NCBI GenBank assembly: GCA_037576195.1
Contig: JAQZDE010000013.1
Coordinates: 1 to 64,000, forward strand
From: Phytoseiulus persimilis
Lineage: Eukaryota; Arthropoda; Arachnida; Mesostigmata; Phytoseiidae
Length of the DNA stretch: 64,000 nucleotides
Reading direction: 5' to 3'
The translations under genes were made by a program, and so were the position numbers. Below, piece after piece: positions 36,001 through 57,106 of this stretch. The notes under the pieces were generated by a model. It searched no databases. It saw nothing but the letters and a program-made list of their open reading frames with translations, and was not told the origin of the DNA. The first letter of the stretch is position 1. Every line of letters begins with the position of its first letter.

Positions 36001-39000
36001 GAACGTCCACCCGAGCAACACGATGCGCTCACTGACCCACATTCTCCTAAACTTTACCTAACCTGACACGTGACACACGTCCAACAGGTGATCGGATCCA
36101 AGCTTGGCAAGAAAAGTAGAATTAGGTGGAGAAAGTTTTCTTGCCGTCGGAGGCAGATATTCATTGTTCAAGTGACTTGACGCCCGCTCGCCACCGACGT
36201 CGTCGGGCAGGAATTCGCGGGGACTAGCGTCAGAGCGCTGAGAGCCGCGCTTTCGATTATCAGCAGCTCCATATCGAGGGTCTGACACACGGGGTACATC
36301 GGACCTCCGAAGTAGTTTTCGAGGCGCCCGACATTTGTCAGAACTCACTCTCGACGACTTCGGAAACTGAAGCTTGCTCACTCGAGTCTATCGGTACACG
36401 AGTGTCACTGGACCGGCGGTTGCGTGACATCGTTGCATGGATTTCGAACGCGCAGCCTGTATTATGTATGAGACCATCTTGAACTATTCATTAGTACCAA
36501 TGATGACGACAACCGGTGTTGGATCGTTTTCGTCGTCGCTGCCACCGTCCATCCATCGGCCTAATTCAACCTTGAACTCCAGGCGTTCGCTCTACGTCGA
36601 TGATGTGTTCTTGGTCGAACGAGTTCTTGGTGGACGTATTGACCGAGAGCAGCCAATCGGGAAACCAGTCAAGCTCATTCCGACAACTTGCGTCCTCGTC
36701 AGCGATATCTGGATGAATGCAACCAGCCTGTTCGAACCGTTTCGAACTTTTCCTCCAGTCGTCGGCATGCTTCTGGAACCTAAATGCGCGAACTTTCAGG
36801 CAAACACGCAAACATCCGGTCGATCGGGAAGATTCTCGCATCATCAACTGTGGCGGTCCTAATCTCGAGGAGCTGGAATGGGAGGAATCTGGCTGGGCTG
36901 TCCTAGAAGCTACTTGATCGCACCGGAGCGAAGCCAGAGTCAAGGAATCCAACGACCGCGTTTGATACTCAACGCGATGAACGGATTTTGTTGTAGCGTT
37001 GGTGGAAATAGATCTTTGGGGCATAGTTTCGGGTTCTTGAAACATCCAAAACAAACACAGTTCGTGCTTCCCGATATGACAATTCGAGCAGCCTCCTAGA
37101 GAGCCGCGGCCGCGACTACTCCAGCACCACATTGGCACTGAGCGCTAACATCACACACGATGTTTTCTCTTGAGAATTATTCGAAAATCGTTACGTGTCT
37201 CTCTCGCCGAGAACGCTTCTTTCTTTCTTCCTCCCGCGCCGCTGTCGAAGCTTGTCCGCAAACTCGGCGGAACCAGCACCGAAATCACAGAACCATTCAC
37301 GGATCAACCGATCGGTTCTTTACTCCGTGCAACCAATCGAACTGTTCGGGTTTAGACCGAACACGCTGCGCGTCCGTTGTCTCTAGCGTTGCCGCTAGTT
37401 CGAATGTTTGGCTTCGATAGATCTCAGGCAGGGAACAGATATTCGGCCTCCTCCTCATTCTTCTCCGTTTCTCGCTCACATGCTTTAGGTTCCGTGGGGT
37501 CGTTGACCCACTTTCATGTCGAAAAGCTCGTTTATGCGTTGCCTAACCGCCTGCAGCCTGGTTCAGCTGGTACAGCTAGCTCATCTTACCTAACCAGTGT
37601 ACCTCCTTTTATGGGAGGTTTGAGGTGCTGCTGTGATGGAGCAGCAGCGTCTTCAGCCAGCGATGACGCAACCGATTTCAAACTCACGGAGCAACCGCCA
37701 CCGAAATAGCGTCCCTAATCAGAGAACACTGACTGCATGAAGAAACCGTTTTCATAACGTTTCGGATAACTCGGAACGGGCTTCCTCGAAAGCAATCGAT
37801 CTGTTTCAATGCATGCGCTAGGACCAGGAAGCTCCGAGCGGATCTTTCTGAAGAGTGGGTCAGGTGAGCGGATGGAAGGTGGGTTGAAATATGAAGCTTT
37901 AGCGAGCGTCGCATCGAAACCCGGGACTGTAATCCAGCCGAGTTCAACTGAGCCGTCTCCGGACTAGAAGCCATCGGCACCCGGTTGCGGCTAGCGTCCA
38001 AGCGACTGTCCTCGCTCATCGGAACGTTACCAAGATGCTCAGTCGGGGGCGGCGTGAAAGGGCGCTCAACCACGTTCGCTCTGACGAGACTGAGATGGAC
38101 ATCTCAGACATTCATCGGAAGGTTGAAAAGCTGTCACCTAATCGAAAAGCATCTTTCGAGTCCGCGCGAGTCATACATTTTCAAGTCGACGTCTCGTTTC
38201 CCTCAGAGATGGCCGAACGGTACAGAAGAAAAATTTGTGTACTGTCTCCTGCTTGATAGTCGGAGCGATCCGATACTGGTATGTTTCACAGCCGGGAAGA
38301 CGTTAGGCTGGGGTCGTCGACCTTCTTGAATTTTGTCGGCTTTTCGGAGAGCCAAGAAGGCCCCATTTCTGGGTTAGCAGCCCAAAACGTAGCAGCGACG
38401 ACAACATCTGGGTTGGGTTGGAGCCGTTTGGGCTTGGTTAGTCCGCTGGTCGTTCACCCACAAGCGACCGTAAGTACTCACTGATACAGAGCTCTTCTGT
38501 CACCCCGTGATATCGTAATCTCATTGGTGGGGGTTGACAAGTTCACTCCTCCATCACCCCTGCTACATGTGCGGGAGGTTTCGTAGTTCGTGAATTCTAC
38601 GCCGGTAAGGTCGGGAACACGATTTTAGCGAAAACCCTGATACTTCCTTTCGTCACTTCTCACTCCACTTCTTTCCGATCTTAAGGAGCAAAACATCCGT
38701 TCTGTTGTTGCTTCGAATGTGGCTGCAATGAGCAGGTTCTTAAATACCGACAAGGGATCGCGAGTTGCGGAAACTTTACTGGTCCATCCACATTAGTATA
38801 CGCTGAACCGCCATCAATTGATTCGGGGATTATCGCCGAAATCGTTGAATCATGTCAGACTGACTCTCAAACAGTGTCTCGGATGTCGCGAAACACCCCC
38901 TTTGGACCCCTCCCCGCCCCCTCCTGATGACATCGCGCGCATCGATCGCTCTCGGTCTCTTTTTCTCTGTGGAACTGAGGCGCCTCTTCTGTTGCAGCGA

Positions 39001-46800: not shown

Positions 46801-48917
46801 TACGCTCGTCGATGCTAGTTGAGACACTTTGGTTTCCACAGAGTTGCTAGCCTCTTTGTTTGTCAACTCTTCCAGATCTCCTTTCTTCGGGAGCTTCGGT
46901 CTGAGAGCCTTGGGAGGACTGGCGGAGGTTTTGGACGTTCTCATTTTCCGCCGACGGATCTTCGTCGTTTGAACTATCTGAACGATCTCTTCCTCTTCGA
47001 CGGTGGAGTTCTTTTCCTCTTCTTCGATGTCTTCGATTTTTATGACACTCCCAGCTGATACTCCCGTTGAGCTCGGGCTGGTCCCACTTGTACTCGGCTC
47101 CGAAACCGGTGCTGGAGTCGGAGGGACAACAGGTTGCTCTTTCTTCTTCGGCCGCTTCTCGTCGTGACACAAACTCGCCGCTAGAATCGCCTGAGCGTTG
47201 AGAGAAGCCATTCGTCGACAGCGGCCAGGAATCGCAACCGCCATCATCTTCCTGTCAACCCTGGGACTCGAGTGGCCGTTGTTCGTAGTTGTTACCGCCT
47301 CGATTGTCACGTCAGAGTCGGTGTCTACTTCGGTGGTTGGTTGCGACGAGCCTGCGGAGTGATTTTGTATTTTTTTCTCGCTCGACACCCGGAATTCATT
47401 GGAAGCATAAGCGTGGATAGCGACGCGCAGCGGAATGAGAACACTGTGCGACGCCGCCGCCAATCTGAGCGAAATCAAAACTCACCGGTCGATGCCGGAG
47501 GAGCAACACTCTCGCTCGACATGCCCGGGCTGATCAAGTGCAGAGTCTCACCGTTGATGCTCCCGTTGCCAATCATATTCAAAGTACTCGTACAACTGTT
47601 ATTGCTGCTGCTTCCGCCATTGTTAACATTGTTGTTGCTCGTGCTGGAAGTTGACGCGACGCAATTGGTCGAATTGGAACTGGATGAGGTCGCGTGCTGC
47701 GTAGAACGATTCGTTTCATTTTCATACATAATGTGCACTTTGGCCATTGCGTTCAAGCTGGCGACACGTCTGAAAATTCCACGGATGGAAATATACATTA
47801 GGAAGATCCCGGTACCTCAACGATAGGATTATGCAAGCCAGACTCCTCGGGGCCGCCCGCTTCAAGGGCTCAGAGGGAACACCATGGAATTGGGTCGCTC
47901 CCGATCACAGACAATAATTCCTCATCGAGTGCGTTTGTCCAGCGGAAAAGAATCTCATTCGTCACAGGCGACGCTCAAAGTGAAAGGAGCTCGTTTGAGA
48001 TCTCAACGTATGTGACGGAGCTCTAATCAGGATGGGCGATTCTTCCGCCTTTTTCAAGTTTCTGAAATCTCTTTCCAGTTTACGTACGGGGGGACAACTC
48101 CCGCTCCGTCTGACTCATCATCACTAGGATATTCAACCGCATGCGACTCATTGAAGGTCGATGGGAAGAGACGCGCCTGAGAGAAACTTCAGAAACCAGG
48201 CTTCGCTCGAGGCACGATTGAAGAGGACTCACCGGGGCAGACAAGTGAGAACTTCAGTTCCAAAACCCCATCCATTGGCCGCGACGGCGCTTCCAACGAC
48301 GTTTCCGTCTTTCGCAGGATCATCTCGACGTTTCTTATCGTCTTTCACAGTCCCGTTGCTGACCGGCTTCTTTTTCTTAACATCGTTGTTGACTGATTTT
48401 CTCGTCTTCTTCTCAGACGGAGTTCCGCTTATCGCCGATGCAGCAACTTTCTTCTGCTTCTCCTTCGATGTCTGGAAGGCACTGGCGTGTTGGTATTCTG
48501 CTCATCAGACACTAGTCAAAAATCTACACTCCCTGAGCACGGTCTCCGTACTCTTCCCTCTGGGAGCAAAGCAGGAGGTTCAACTTGCATGCTCACCTTA
48601 GATTGTTGTGATGATGGGCCCGAAGAAGCTCCGTCCTTCTTCTTCTTCAACTCCTTCAACTTCAGCTCCTTGAGTTCTTTAACTGCCGAAGCAGCCTCTT
48701 TCTTTTTGGACATCGGCGTCTTCCTCGGCGGCGCCAAGGGAGCTGCCTTGGAGTCTTTCTTCTTTTTTGGAGGGCCCTTGATGTTTTGTGCGACTCCACT
48801 GGATCCTCCGGCTCCCCCGAGCCCCGAGGACCCCTCGTCCTTCTCCTGAGGTTTCATCTCAAGGCGGAACTCCGACGAACGCCTCCATCGCGAAGCCTTC
48901 GAGCTGGAATCAATCAT
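43807..48917 (-). CDS. wge: BAH-domain chromatin protein, winged eye/BAHCC1/TNRC18 family
   Basis: Ten coding exons, in transcript order: 48597-48917, 48233-48471, 47486-47769, 46772-47351, 46361-46566, 46065-46216, 45155-45380, 44648-45023, 44273-44491, 43807-44158. All junctions are GT-AG with matching phase and total 985 codons (984 aa) if translation starts at the ATG that opens the first exon; further 5' exons are possible. The N-terminal third is Lys/Ser/Glu-rich and disordered. A basic RR-x-ASLNA motif occurs twice (about residues 187 and 327). HGWSWLGEPFLKK near residue 785 precedes the BAH domain (about 815-945), which contains IIRPRDCVLLKSG, the cage-type LLWYYRPEHT, FASKH and NSVACIEDKCYVL. 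The family-typical end FFCRKVYDYRQKRILKN closes the protein. Known: Drosophila Winged eye promotes heterochromatin and imaginal-disc fate changes; the vertebrate BAHCC1 and TNRC18 BAH domains read methylated histone H3 tails. A nuclear chromatin-reader role here is by homology. Family assignment is strong; the exact start is uncertain. Confidence 0.92.
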
Positions 48918-52354: not shown

Positions 52355-52948
52355 ATGGGAGAACTAGATCCATTGTTCACGAAAGCCTTGAGACTGCTAC
52401 ACTCACGCCCCAGGGAGTCTGTCGATTCGCTGGCACAGCTCATCGAGGATGTGGTTGCACAGAAACACGGACCACAAGCACAAGCGATGATCCTGGCCGC
52501 CATCAAAATTAATCCCCCGGGCAAATCTATCGCGCCCGCAGCAAGTATGTTCGCTCGTTTCTGATTCTTTGACAGATAGATAACGTAACTCTGTTCGGAT
52601 GTCCGCATCGACGAGAATTTCCACTGACACCCTACGTTCGCGGATTTTGATGAGCGCTTGTCTTCCCTTCAAAGTTACATATCGTCCTAGAAGTCTCTAG
52701 GTCAAGAGGATCACCGAGAGACAATGACTCAGGTGGAAGTGATTCTCCTTTCAGGGACAGATGAACGCAAAAAATCAAACAGCTCGTCTTCGTCATCTTC
52801 ATCTTCTGAGAAGCGGGATAAAATGAAGGAGTTCATGAAGAAGAAGTCTTCGAGCGCATCATCGTCCATGCCCAGTTCGCCGTCGCACAAAGTTTCCTCT
52901 AGGCCCACCTCCTCGAGCTCGTCTTCTTCATCTTCTAAGACCAAATGA
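52355..52948 (+). CDS. INTS12: Integrator complex subunit 12-like protein, short form without PHD finger
   Basis: Two exons, 52355-52544 and 52755-52948, join through a GT-AG intron with matching phase to give 127 aa. The N-terminus reads GELDPLFTKALRLLHSRP and continues with a helix ending in EDVVAQ. From memory this matches the start of animal INTS12 (human [20 protein letters not shown]). That segment is the microdomain shown in Drosophila to bind the Integrator core and suffice for snRNA 3'-end processing. The rest is Ser-rich, with a basic EKRDKMKEFMKKK patch and two long serine runs. Human INTS12 is far longer (about 460 aa) and carries a Cys-rich PHD finger; none is encoded here, nor in plus-strand sequence down to the opposing RRP15 gene. 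Integrator cleaves snRNA 3' ends and attenuates Pol II transcripts in the nucleus. Either this lineage shortened the gene, or a distant exon was missed. The gene converges on RRP15. Confidence 0.72.
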
Positions 52949-53428
52949 CATTCAGCCAACAACCACAAAGGTTCATTGGATAGCAAGAAACGATCGAGAA
53001 TGGACGAGCTCTTCGAATCCGTTCCGGAGCCCGGACATCGTTGATCTGCGCATGGTTCGCCCATCACATTGAGCGAAGAAATTATTACTGTTGTTAAACC
53101 ACCAACGTTCAGATTGATGTACCTATTTAAGATTTTATCGCCAATGAACAATCATCACTCAGAATAGTGAGACTCGGTAAGAGAAGTTCAACTGTCCACC
53201 GCCGTGCTTGAAAGGCTGGCCTCTGGCTTGGACATCGTATCTCGAATCATTCCTCGGTGATTTTTTTCGGAGGAAGAACCGTCATCCTACCCTGCAAGAG
53301 GTTTCTCTTCGTTCTAGATTCGCAGGCATACGAAGACGAGGGCAAACTTCGAGGAAAAATGCTATGACGGCGAACGCCCTTGGAGTTCCATTTCTCATGT
53401 CTGAAGTGCGCTTTGAGAGGTTCCCTGA

Positions 53429-53434
53429 TTTATT
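53429..53434 (-). promoter_or_regulatory. Poly(A) signal AATAAA of RRP15
   Basis: TTTATT on the plus strand is AATAAA on the minus strand. It begins 43 nt past the RRP15 stop at 53477 and implies a very short 3' UTR. Confidence 0.75.
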
Positions 53435-53476
53435 CCACTTCTCGACGAAATATAAACATGCTATTTACAAAAAAAA

Positions 53477-54674
53477 TCAATCGATATCGCTCTCGGCTTG
53501 CTTATCCCAATCCCTCATCTTGGAATTCATCATGAAGTCGTCTTTCAAGGCTTCCCATTTCGATTCGTCCCCATTCTTCTTCTTCTCTTGGATTTTGTAC
53601 AAAGTGTCCATAAATCGACCTTTCTTGTACCGACGGTCTTCTTCGTCAGACGAGTTGGCCTTCGCTTCGGCTCGCTGTGGATCAGACAGGGCGTTATGTA
53701 CTGTAATTTTGGAGGGACACGAAAATGATGGAGCTCGTTCATGAGTGAGAACGAAACTGTATGTGCCATCTGCGAGCTGAGGAACCCATCCTGTGCGGTT
53801 CCGTTCAAATCTCCTCGTGATATGACCATGGCATCTTGTATTCACCAATAAATAGGGTACCTGTTGCTCTTGATGTTTGTTGACGGCATTGAAGAGCTGC
53901 ACGACTCCTTTCGTGGCGGTTCTCAGAAGATTTTTCTCGTATGGGTCTCCCGGCTGGGCTTGAACTAAGGCGAAATTCAAGCGCTCTTTTTTCCGACGGA
54001 TCTTGTCAAGGTACTCTTTCTTTTCCGTCGTTCCATCATCGGAGCTCGATCCGTCGCCTTCTCCATTCCCTGACACTTCCTCCTCATCTACAACATTGCC
54101 TAGAACGGAATCACATGGAACCTTGAGCGGTGGATAGGCTGGGTAGGAACAAACAAACCTAGGAACAAAATTATCGCTCCGGTGCGCGGGTTCGGATGAT
54201 GCCGAGCTTCAGAATCACAGCTCAGCAAAAAAGGACAAAGAGGAAGAGAGCGCTCACCTTCGTCATCGACAATCTTCATGGGCACTCTGGGTTTTTGCTT
54301 GCTGGGCTTGGCTTTCTCGAGCTGCTGCATCTCTTTCCGGCGTTCGATCTCTGCATCTTTTCGTGCTTTGGAAAGGACTATCGTTTTCTTGCTATTCTTC
54401 AGCTTCGGATTCTGCGTCAGGACTTTGGTGAACACATTGGCCCATCCTTCGTTTCCACCGACAACTCCCTCGCAATCGGTCTGCCGGGGAAATTATCGAA
54501 TTGTTATCCGCTAACATCAATGCTACATCATGGAATCATTTGGAAGAAACATGTTTGAGCCGCGTTTCCTGGTTCTTTGACCAACCGATATCCTTAGACA
54601 CTCACTCCTTCATCGTCACCAACGTCACTTTCCGGCGTTTCAGAATCTGGATCTCTGCTGGGAACTTCTGTCAT
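53477..54674 (-). CDS. RRP15: RRP15-like ribosomal RNA-processing protein
   Basis: Four exons in transcript order, 54606-54674, 54258-54480, 53861-54099 and 53477-53674, join through GT-AG introns with agreeing phases into a 242-aa protein from ATG to TGA. An acidic N-terminus (DSETPESDVGDDEG) is followed by EGWANVFTKVL, a Lys-rich charged helix, the family core NLLRTATKGVVQLFNAVNKH, and the C-terminal WEALKDDFMMNSKMRDWD. These match human RRP15 (GVVQLFNAVQKH, ILRDDFMMGASMKDWD), which is 282 aa. RRP15 acts in the nucleolus in pre-rRNA processing and assembly of the 60S subunit. If the second intron were left unspliced the reading frame would stay open, but the spliced form aligns better and removes a hydrophobic insert. 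The gene is divergent from the zinc-finger gene and convergent with the INTS12-like gene. Confidence 0.95.
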
Positions 54675-54769: not shown

Positions 54770-55304
54770 AACACAGCAGACAGCTTTCGGAGAGGAATCG
54801 CTCCCCAGCGTCGCCAATGCTGGAGTCCCCCATATTCTCGAGCGGAAGCTTTCCTTTCCGAAACTAGTCGATGCTCGATTCCTGTCGCCATCTCGAAGTA
54901 CGCAAAGGCATCATTCACCCCTCCATCTGAGCTTTTGATAATGTATTGGAAGCTAGAAATCTCGATTCAGTGGCGAACTCTGTGAGGAATCGGGCCTGTG
55001 ATGTCGATGAAATATTCAGTGTCCCTGGGCGGGTAGCGAGTCAAATTAACGAAGGTTTCCCCGGCCTGAAGGTCGTGAGTGATCGGCTTTCACAACTATG
55101 GAGGAAGCCACAGAGGCTCCCCACGTCCGGGAGTCGCTCCCAGGTGTGGTCCGTCAACAAGAAACCGTTCGTACTTTCCTTGTTGCTGTGCAATAGTTAT
55201 GTACATCACAGCTCGCGAATCGCGCTCTATATCTGAACCAGTTTGAAGTGTGACTCGAATAACGCTCGAATCAAACCATCATTGATCACATCTCTATTTC
55301 ACAG

Positions 55305-57106
55305 ACCATTCTGAAGTGCAGTGACTGCCAAGTGACCTTCTCTACGCGAACGAATTTGAATCGACACGTGCGTAAACGTCACCCGGGACTCGTGCGATGT
55401 GGAATCTGTGATGGGGAGGTTCGTGGACGCTCAATGCATCTTCGTTTCGCTGAGCCGAGATCAACTTTTTCCCAGATCCCACTCATTAAGTTGCCTTACA
55501 GGTGGAAACTAATATCGACAGGCACCTCAAGGAGATCCACGGTGTCGTCCTCGAGTTCTCAAAATTGGTCTTCAAAAGTGAAATTCGTGAGTGAGCGCCA
55601 TGACCATGCATCCATTCCTGGGATGCCTTCTTGTCAATATAACTCAATGTAACCCAGAGGTACTCTGCAGACTTCCAGTTATGGAAGGTTGAGGAGGAAA
55701 AACGATCCGGAGCGCAGTACGTCAGCACATCGGGCACGAAAAAAACCGCCTCCTGTGTGGCCAAGAGATATTTCGTGTGTCGCCGCTCCGGCAATTTCCA
55801 ATCGAGAATTCCAGATCAGAACCGGGTAAGAGCTGAGCCTTGGAAGCTCGAATCTGATTTGCCCCCTCTCCCCACTGGGCTGAAGGGATTTAGAAGATTC
55901 GCGGAACGGAGGCGGCGATTATCCAAATTGAATATTTCTGTGATTTTACCCATCATCAGACGAGTACCTCTCAGAGATTTCTGGTGCCAGAGGCCGATCG
56001 GCTTGCCACACCACCAGAGCAGCCTGAGGAGTAGAGAGGGGGGGGGGGAGAAGCTGAATGAAACTGCATGTTCAAGATACTTGGTCGCAGAAATTGAACC
56101 TCGATATTCGAATGGGTGGGCACGCATGATCGCATCTCATCCTGGTGAGAGTTGGGGACACCATTTTGAGCTCGAAAGAACGGAGAGCTAGAGTGTGAAT
56201 CCGATCCATTTCAGGCACAGAAGAAGCGGCGGGCTTCGATCCGTTGTGGGGTCAAGTGCCCTGCGAAAATGACTCTCACAGTCGATCCCGCGGGAGCTTA
56301 CATCGTCGAATACCAGCAAACTCATTTCGGCCACGATCGGGAGATCCCGAAGCAGCACGAAATCGCAGGTAGGGACTGAACGTATGTTTCTACGACTGGA
56401 CATGTTCCCCGAGGATCTTAGGCCACGTTCACGTCTTACAGCAGAGAGGAAGCCGTTGGGATTCTTGGAAACTATTTGGGAGCTGCGGAATTCACCTCGT
56501 TGGAGGCGCTACGAAGACCGCGTCCACATGCATTTCGATAGGAAGCAGGCCGTGTTGATGGTGGCAGAGGTTGGTGTGACTATTTGGAGACGATTTCGGA
56601 TATGCAGCGATCTGACGCAATCAAATCATGCACAGGAGTCAGAGGAGCTTCAGAAAGTTGGGTTTTTTTCTTTAGCACGCCTGCACCCCTTGCTCGATTA
56701 CGAACATCGGAGAAGCCAGCGTGGCATGGTAGACATCTCGTGCGCTGGCCGCTGCCGAACGTTTCAAGATCGTCTGAAACCCCAGGGCGCTGCAAGCCCT
56801 CTCTTCCTATACGGCGATCTCTCTGTTTTGGGAAGGCTCTTCGATCAACTCACTGTCGAAGATTCACACTCGATGGAACGTTCGCATTTTTTCATCAGCT
56901 TTCGGGCACCTCTTTCCACACCTTCACGGTGCATCCCTCCCGGCCTACCTCGTTTTATCCGCGCAGTTCGGTTAGCTTCTGGGAGGCGAAAACGAGCGCT
57001 TATGAGGGGAAGTTTGCTTAAGCGCTCATTCTGCAATGCCTCTTCGGTCTCTCTTCTCCATCGTATACAAACGTATTCGCGATCCCATAAGTGTATTCCT
57101 CCATGA
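55305..57106 (+). CDS. C2H2 zinc-finger/FAR1-like protein related to MULE transposases (5' end unresolved)
   Basis: Phase-compatible exons 55305-55418, 55502-55586, 55671-55825, 56215-56368 and one starting at 56442. The first has a C2H2 finger (C-x2-C-x12-H-x4-H, CSDCQVTFSTRTNLNRHV) and the CGIC half of a second, completed in the next exon by TNIDRHLKEIH with a shortened spacer. Then come FQLWKVEEEKRSGAQYV and YFVCRRSG, followed by KKRRASIRCGVKCPAKM and YQQTHFGHDREIP, the Cys/His pattern of the FAR1-like DNA-binding module next to MULE transposase domains in many arthropod proteins. The last exon may stop at a weak donor (56569) or stay open to the TGA at 57104-57106, passing LKPQGAASP, which resembles a segment before the transposase core. 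No catalytic DDE-type core is visible. The N-terminus was not found; the only nearby candidate is an ATG at about 55099 without a fitting donor. It is probably a transposon-derived or domesticated DNA-binding protein, or a decayed copy. Confidence 0.62.

Follow-up and report, generated by a model that had tools for sequence, protein, structure and literature searches.

A candidate natural minimal INTS12 in the mite Phytoseiulus persimilis, predicted to keep the Integrator-binding segment without a detectable PHD finger

Does the mite Phytoseiulus persimilis encode an INTS12 that lacks the PHD finger, the zinc-finger domain by which this RNA-processing protein is usually recognised? The question is raised by a short gene at positions 52355-52948 of the window, the whole stretch of 64,000 nucleotides that was analysed, which forms the first part of a 75,000-base contig (C13). 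The initial annotation described a predicted protein of 127 aa that begins with the INTS12 hallmark segment and continues as a Ser/Lys-rich tail, and proposed that it might be a natural minimal INTS12. The features of the locus are as follows.

52355..52544, plus strand: first exon of the INTS12-like gene, with the part that matches the human INTS12 N-terminus (residues 3-36) and about 27 more residues after it
52361..52459, plus strand: segment similar to the N-terminal part of human INTS12 (33 aa, 45% identical)
52545..52754, plus strand: predicted intron of 210 bp, GTATGT...TTTCAG, from splice-site scoring
52755..52948, plus strand: exon 2, a Ser/Lys-rich tail with no Cys, ending in TGA, from translation and splice-site scoring
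53477..54208, minus strand: stop-to-stop frame of RRP15 with a Pfam Rrp15p match, tail-to-tail neighbour

The INTS12-like gene is predicted as a compact two-exon gene on the plus strand, and its spliced frame stops at the TGA at 52946-52948. The start ATG at 52355 is in a strong context, with A at -3 and G at +4. The donor CAA/GTATGT (52545) has A at -1, where G is usual. With a generic donor matrix, this donor is the top-scoring GT within 52355-52960 (score +2.9), and it outranks 98.7% of the 3,422 plus-strand GT sites in the window. Among the AG sites of 52601-53480, a rough score places the acceptor CTCCTTTCAG/GG at 52755 at the top. Splicing at another AG, 52761, would keep the frame and shorten the protein by two residues, to 125 aa. 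The 127-aa product contains 34 Ser, 15 Lys, and no Cys. The hallmark segment and the Ser/Lys-rich tail of the initial annotation are both borne out by the gene model, the composition, and the alignment described below. The Ser residues of the tail are encoded by six different codons, and TRF found no tandem array in exon 2; exon 2 thus suits coding rather than microsatellite sequence, and its origin as a microsatellite product was rejected. The tail is probably disordered. A single-sequence AlphaFold model of the exon 1 peptide had a mean pLDDT of 65.3, with low-confidence helices at residues 6-17, 23-38, and 40-52. Such helices would fit a peptide that takes up its fold on binding a partner, but the model is too weak to serve as an argument. 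Rfam and tRNA scans across the 64-kb window gave no match in either case.

Alignment analysis showed that residues 3-36 match the N-terminus of human INTS12 without a gap (15/34 identical); this likeness to the human and mouse proteins lies near the start of the protein. The INTS12 N-terminal motif ELDPxFxKALxxLHS..., taken from the human sequence, is present in the mite protein. The local alignment of the two N-termini scored 83, a value reached by none of 20,000 shuffles, the highest of which scored 56 (Gumbel p ~1.6e-8). When the 35 N-terminal residues of human INTS12 were searched against the 181-Mb genome at E<=10, only one match was returned, at 52361-52459 (E 0.007). Of the whole human INTS12 query, the PHD part was checked and is identical at 65 of 66 residues to 1wev, the solved structure of the mouse INTS12 PHD. 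The whole-protein query matched 14 places in the genome, among which 52361-52462 ranked tenth (E 0.995, 44% identity over 34 aa). It is the only one of the 14 matches that covers the N-terminus; eight of the nine better-ranked rows align to the PHD part.

A Pfam search of the 127-aa protein found no family at E<=0.01, and for a version of the sequence that differed by one wrong residue the sole match was Macoilin (E 0.94), which fell short of the cut-off for that family. The exon 1 peptide matched no solved structure at E<=1. Without a family or a structure match, the INTS12 assignment rests on the N-terminal segment. The similarity of the tail to the C-terminal tail of human INTS12 was not significant, as 4,169 of 5,000 shuffles scored as high, and a C-terminal Lys-rich motif common with the human protein was rejected on the same shuffles. 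One might suppose that the N-terminal match is convergent, that the gene is not INTS12, and that the true INTS12 has been lost or has become too divergent to detect. The homology is indeed confined to about 34 residues, in a protein that Pfam does not recognise and whose tail adds no significant similarity; however, the match is ungapped, occupies the same N-terminal position, is unique in the genome, and reaches the small p value given above. Convergence is thus very improbable.

The locus also appears to be single. The exon 1 protein matched only its own locus in the genome at E<=10, and a DNA-level search with the INTS12 region returned a single copy at E<=1e-5. The neighbouring RRP15 frame, which has further exons past 54208 by eye, gives the one Pfam Rrp15p match of the whole genome; as this match is on C13, the contig appears not to be a redundant duplicate. 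For RRP15 as for INTS12, C13 is the only contig with a match. The assembly consists of 127 contigs, at least two of which are exactly round in size (C13 with 75,000 bases and C58 with 50,000 bases), as if cut at fixed steps by a scaffolder. This suggests scaffolding debris, and the assembly may be imperfect. A second, PHD-bearing INTS12 might then fall in an assembly gap, and the C13 locus might be a shortened paralogue. This is improbable, as the 181 Mb hold neither a second N-terminal match nor a second DNA copy.

The predicted protein contains no C4HC3 PHD finger: it has no Cys and no Pfam match, so the zinc ligands of PF00628 are lacking. Scans for PHD cysteine patterns over positions 1-75000 of C13, on both strands and in six frames, found neither a full pattern nor an N-half pattern. 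What was found are partial pieces. Middle-PHD-like pieces occur at 71468-71512 on the plus strand (64-aa frame) and at 37055-37090 on the minus strand (192-aa frame). Double-CxxC stretches occur on the plus strand at 47558 (22-aa frame) and at 55317 (C2H2-like by eye). There are 12 isolated W/Y/F-x-CxxC pieces, and only the one at 53392 is both on the plus strand and downstream of the 52544 donor. No combination of these pieces makes up a finger. A frameshift or mis-splicing that hides a PHD was rejected, as no frame of C13 holds a full or N-half pattern. Beyond RRP15, the open frame at 55263-55652 (plus strand) includes a C2H2-like zinc-finger stretch by eye.

The genome was searched for an INTS12-type PHD elsewhere. 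The Pfam PHD model (PF00628) gave 53 matches at E<=0.001 among 114 scored candidates, none of them on C13; typing covered some of these 53 places. With the same model, the human INTS12 PHD scores 36 bits and clears the cut-off of 24, so a normal single-exon INTS12 PHD should be detected. Searching with the human INTS12 PHD at E<=10 yielded 12 places, all of them outside C13 and led by C3:36332766 (E 1.4e-5). When the PHD was divided into overlapping queries, the C-terminal part found five places, none on C13, and the N-terminal part found no place. The N-terminal part thus missed even known PHDs, and a finger interrupted by an intron might go unnoticed. By PF00628, the human PHD, its two overlapping parts, and the whole INTS12 query, no INTS12-type PHD was found elsewhere in the genome.

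The gene might be longer than predicted: exon 2 could be skipped through a long intron, or the PHD could be encoded in split exons, and either an isoform or the true transcript would then encode a normal INTS12. Six-frame searches detect whole exons only, half-PHD exons are poorly detectable, as the N-terminal query illustrates, and the contig stops at 75,000. The piece at 71468-71512, beyond the window, has a loose C-x3-C-x6-H-x2-C spacing and is the sole middle-PHD-like piece downstream on the strand of the gene. It is probably a chance occurrence; no CxxC lies in the preceding 15 residues, and no plus-strand W/Y/F-x-CxxC follows. Moreover, exon 2 has no good donor (the best, at 52875, scores -5.6 vs +2.9 for 52545), and the gene has limited space on its 3' side, as RRP15 lies some 0.5 kb downstream on the opposite strand. 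The C13 scans for full and N-half patterns and the C-terminal PHD query also speak against a longer gene, which we consider unlikely. The absence of the PHD from this gene and from the plus strand up to the next gene, as first proposed, is therefore upheld. The search for a C4HC3 exon beyond the 52544 donor was carried to the end of the contig and met only the partial pieces, and neither another INTS12 locus nor an INTS12-type PHD was found genome-wide.

The PHD places nearest to the INTS12 type were considered individually. The first finger at C3:36332766 (L009) matched MTF2 at E 2.2e-9 and the INTS12 PHD 1wev at E 6.5e-8; the MTF2 match is only slightly better, so typing by a single finger is not sharp. 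In an open stretch shortly downstream lies a second finger of PHF1 type (E 1.2e-12). This locus, the PHD nearest to the INTS12 type, was rejected as a detached INTS12 PHD and assigned to a Polycomblike gene. Three other PHD loci were also rejected as INTS12. One contains an FHA domain in addition (L011, presumably PHF12-like), one has by eye a SAM-like stretch after it (L010), and one has a PHD with no other Pfam assignment above the cut-off (L012).

Several PHD-bearing frames occur in pairs. The open frames at C4:25947883 and C4:27229393 (592 and 594 aa) are near-identical by eye, lie on opposite strands about 1.28 Mb apart, and combine a PHD-like finger with a C-terminal part that resembles an acetyltransferase. 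We take them to be KAT14-like, and they are possibly a recent duplication. The frames at C1:5168241 and C1:5180108 (700 aa each) have identical scores, as do those at C1:54456912 and C3:24633449 (495 aa each), which suggests recent gene copies.

The mite protein differs from human INTS12, which we take to have 462 aa, in its length of 127 aa and in the lack of a PHD and of any Cys; the C-terminal tails of the two are not significantly similar. In Drosophila, truncation experiments reportedly defined an N-terminal microdomain, which would correspond to exon 1 of the mite gene. The fly truncation is experimental, whereas the mite genome appears to encode a PHD-less form naturally. According to PMC5364626, which cites Chen et al. 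2013 (JBC), the PHD is dispensable for snRNA processing. The same paper, from 2017, describes INTS12, and particularly its PHD, as highly conserved in 66 metazoan ORFs, and so loss of the PHD is not the default expectation. It also proposes the recognition of H3K4me3 for INTS12.

In C. elegans, T23B12.1 is presumably a PHD protein and would then represent the opposite part of INTS12 from that of the mite protein. Like the mite protein, it is a small INTS12 candidate (INTS-12, 25.9 kDa; PMC6390993), and PHD is among the domain labels explained in a figure legend of that paper. In that paper, INTS-12 depletion caused no significant transcriptome change, the class of subunits to which it belongs contributes mildly to snRNA processing, and INTS-12 was not detected in an INTS-6 pull-down. 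C. elegans is said to lack an INTS12 homologue in PMC5364626, whereas T23B12.1 is called INTS-12 in PMC6390993. These conflicting calls would fit the view that PHD-led searches are an unreliable guide.

Genes for INTS1, the reported partner of INTS12 (E 2e-62), and for INTS2 (E 4.9e-222) were found on C3, so the Integrator complex is very likely present. A 2024 structure paper states that INTS12 binds the flexible INTS1 N-terminus and that INTS12 is itself unresolved in Integrator structures (PMC11062913), and a 2022 review describes INTS12 as largely unstructured and as supporting INTS1 stability, and lists its role in Integrator among the open questions (PMC9006982). The best reading of the locus is a natural INTS12 that appears to be cut down to its Integrator-binding segment and a Ser/Lys-rich tail. 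The proposal of a natural minimal INTS12 gains support, at the level of sequence, from the N-terminal match, the single copy, and the lack of a detectable INTS12-type PHD. No other INTS12 turned up in the genome, and we consider it likely that the two-exon gene is expressed as a 127-aa PHD-less protein. This protein would most probably act by docking its N-terminal segment onto the flexible INTS1 N-terminus. The docked short INTS12 would then support INTS1 and Integrator in snRNA 3'-end processing and promoter-proximal termination. The INTS1-docking job would be kept, and contact with histones or DNA, which is attributed to the PHD, would be missing. The snRNA role of INTS12 is described as mild in human bronchial cells (PMC5364626) and in C. 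elegans (PMC6390993), so its retention for snRNA processing is uncertain.

The INTS12 literature covered here (PHD, microdomain, structure, evolution, loss, mites, and C. elegans), with most subscription papers lying outside that coverage, makes no mention of a natural PHD-less INTS12; it yielded no paper on the subunit in mites. Loss of a dispensable domain agrees with the earlier fly work. If true, a PHD-less INTS12 would give structural studies a minimal partner to work with, and its comparison with PHD-bearing relatives would test the contribution of the PHD, such as the H3K4me3 link proposed in PMC5364626. The chances seem evenly balanced that a whole lineage is without the INTS12 PHD. 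In that case the INTS12 of its Integrator would be no more than a peptide that docks onto INTS1 and carries a disordered tail, the presence or absence of INTS12 called from the PHD in other animals may be in error, and the N-terminal segment would be the true mark of the subunit. A natural PHD-less INTS12, if true, would suggest that the INTS1-docking segment is the indispensable part of the protein.
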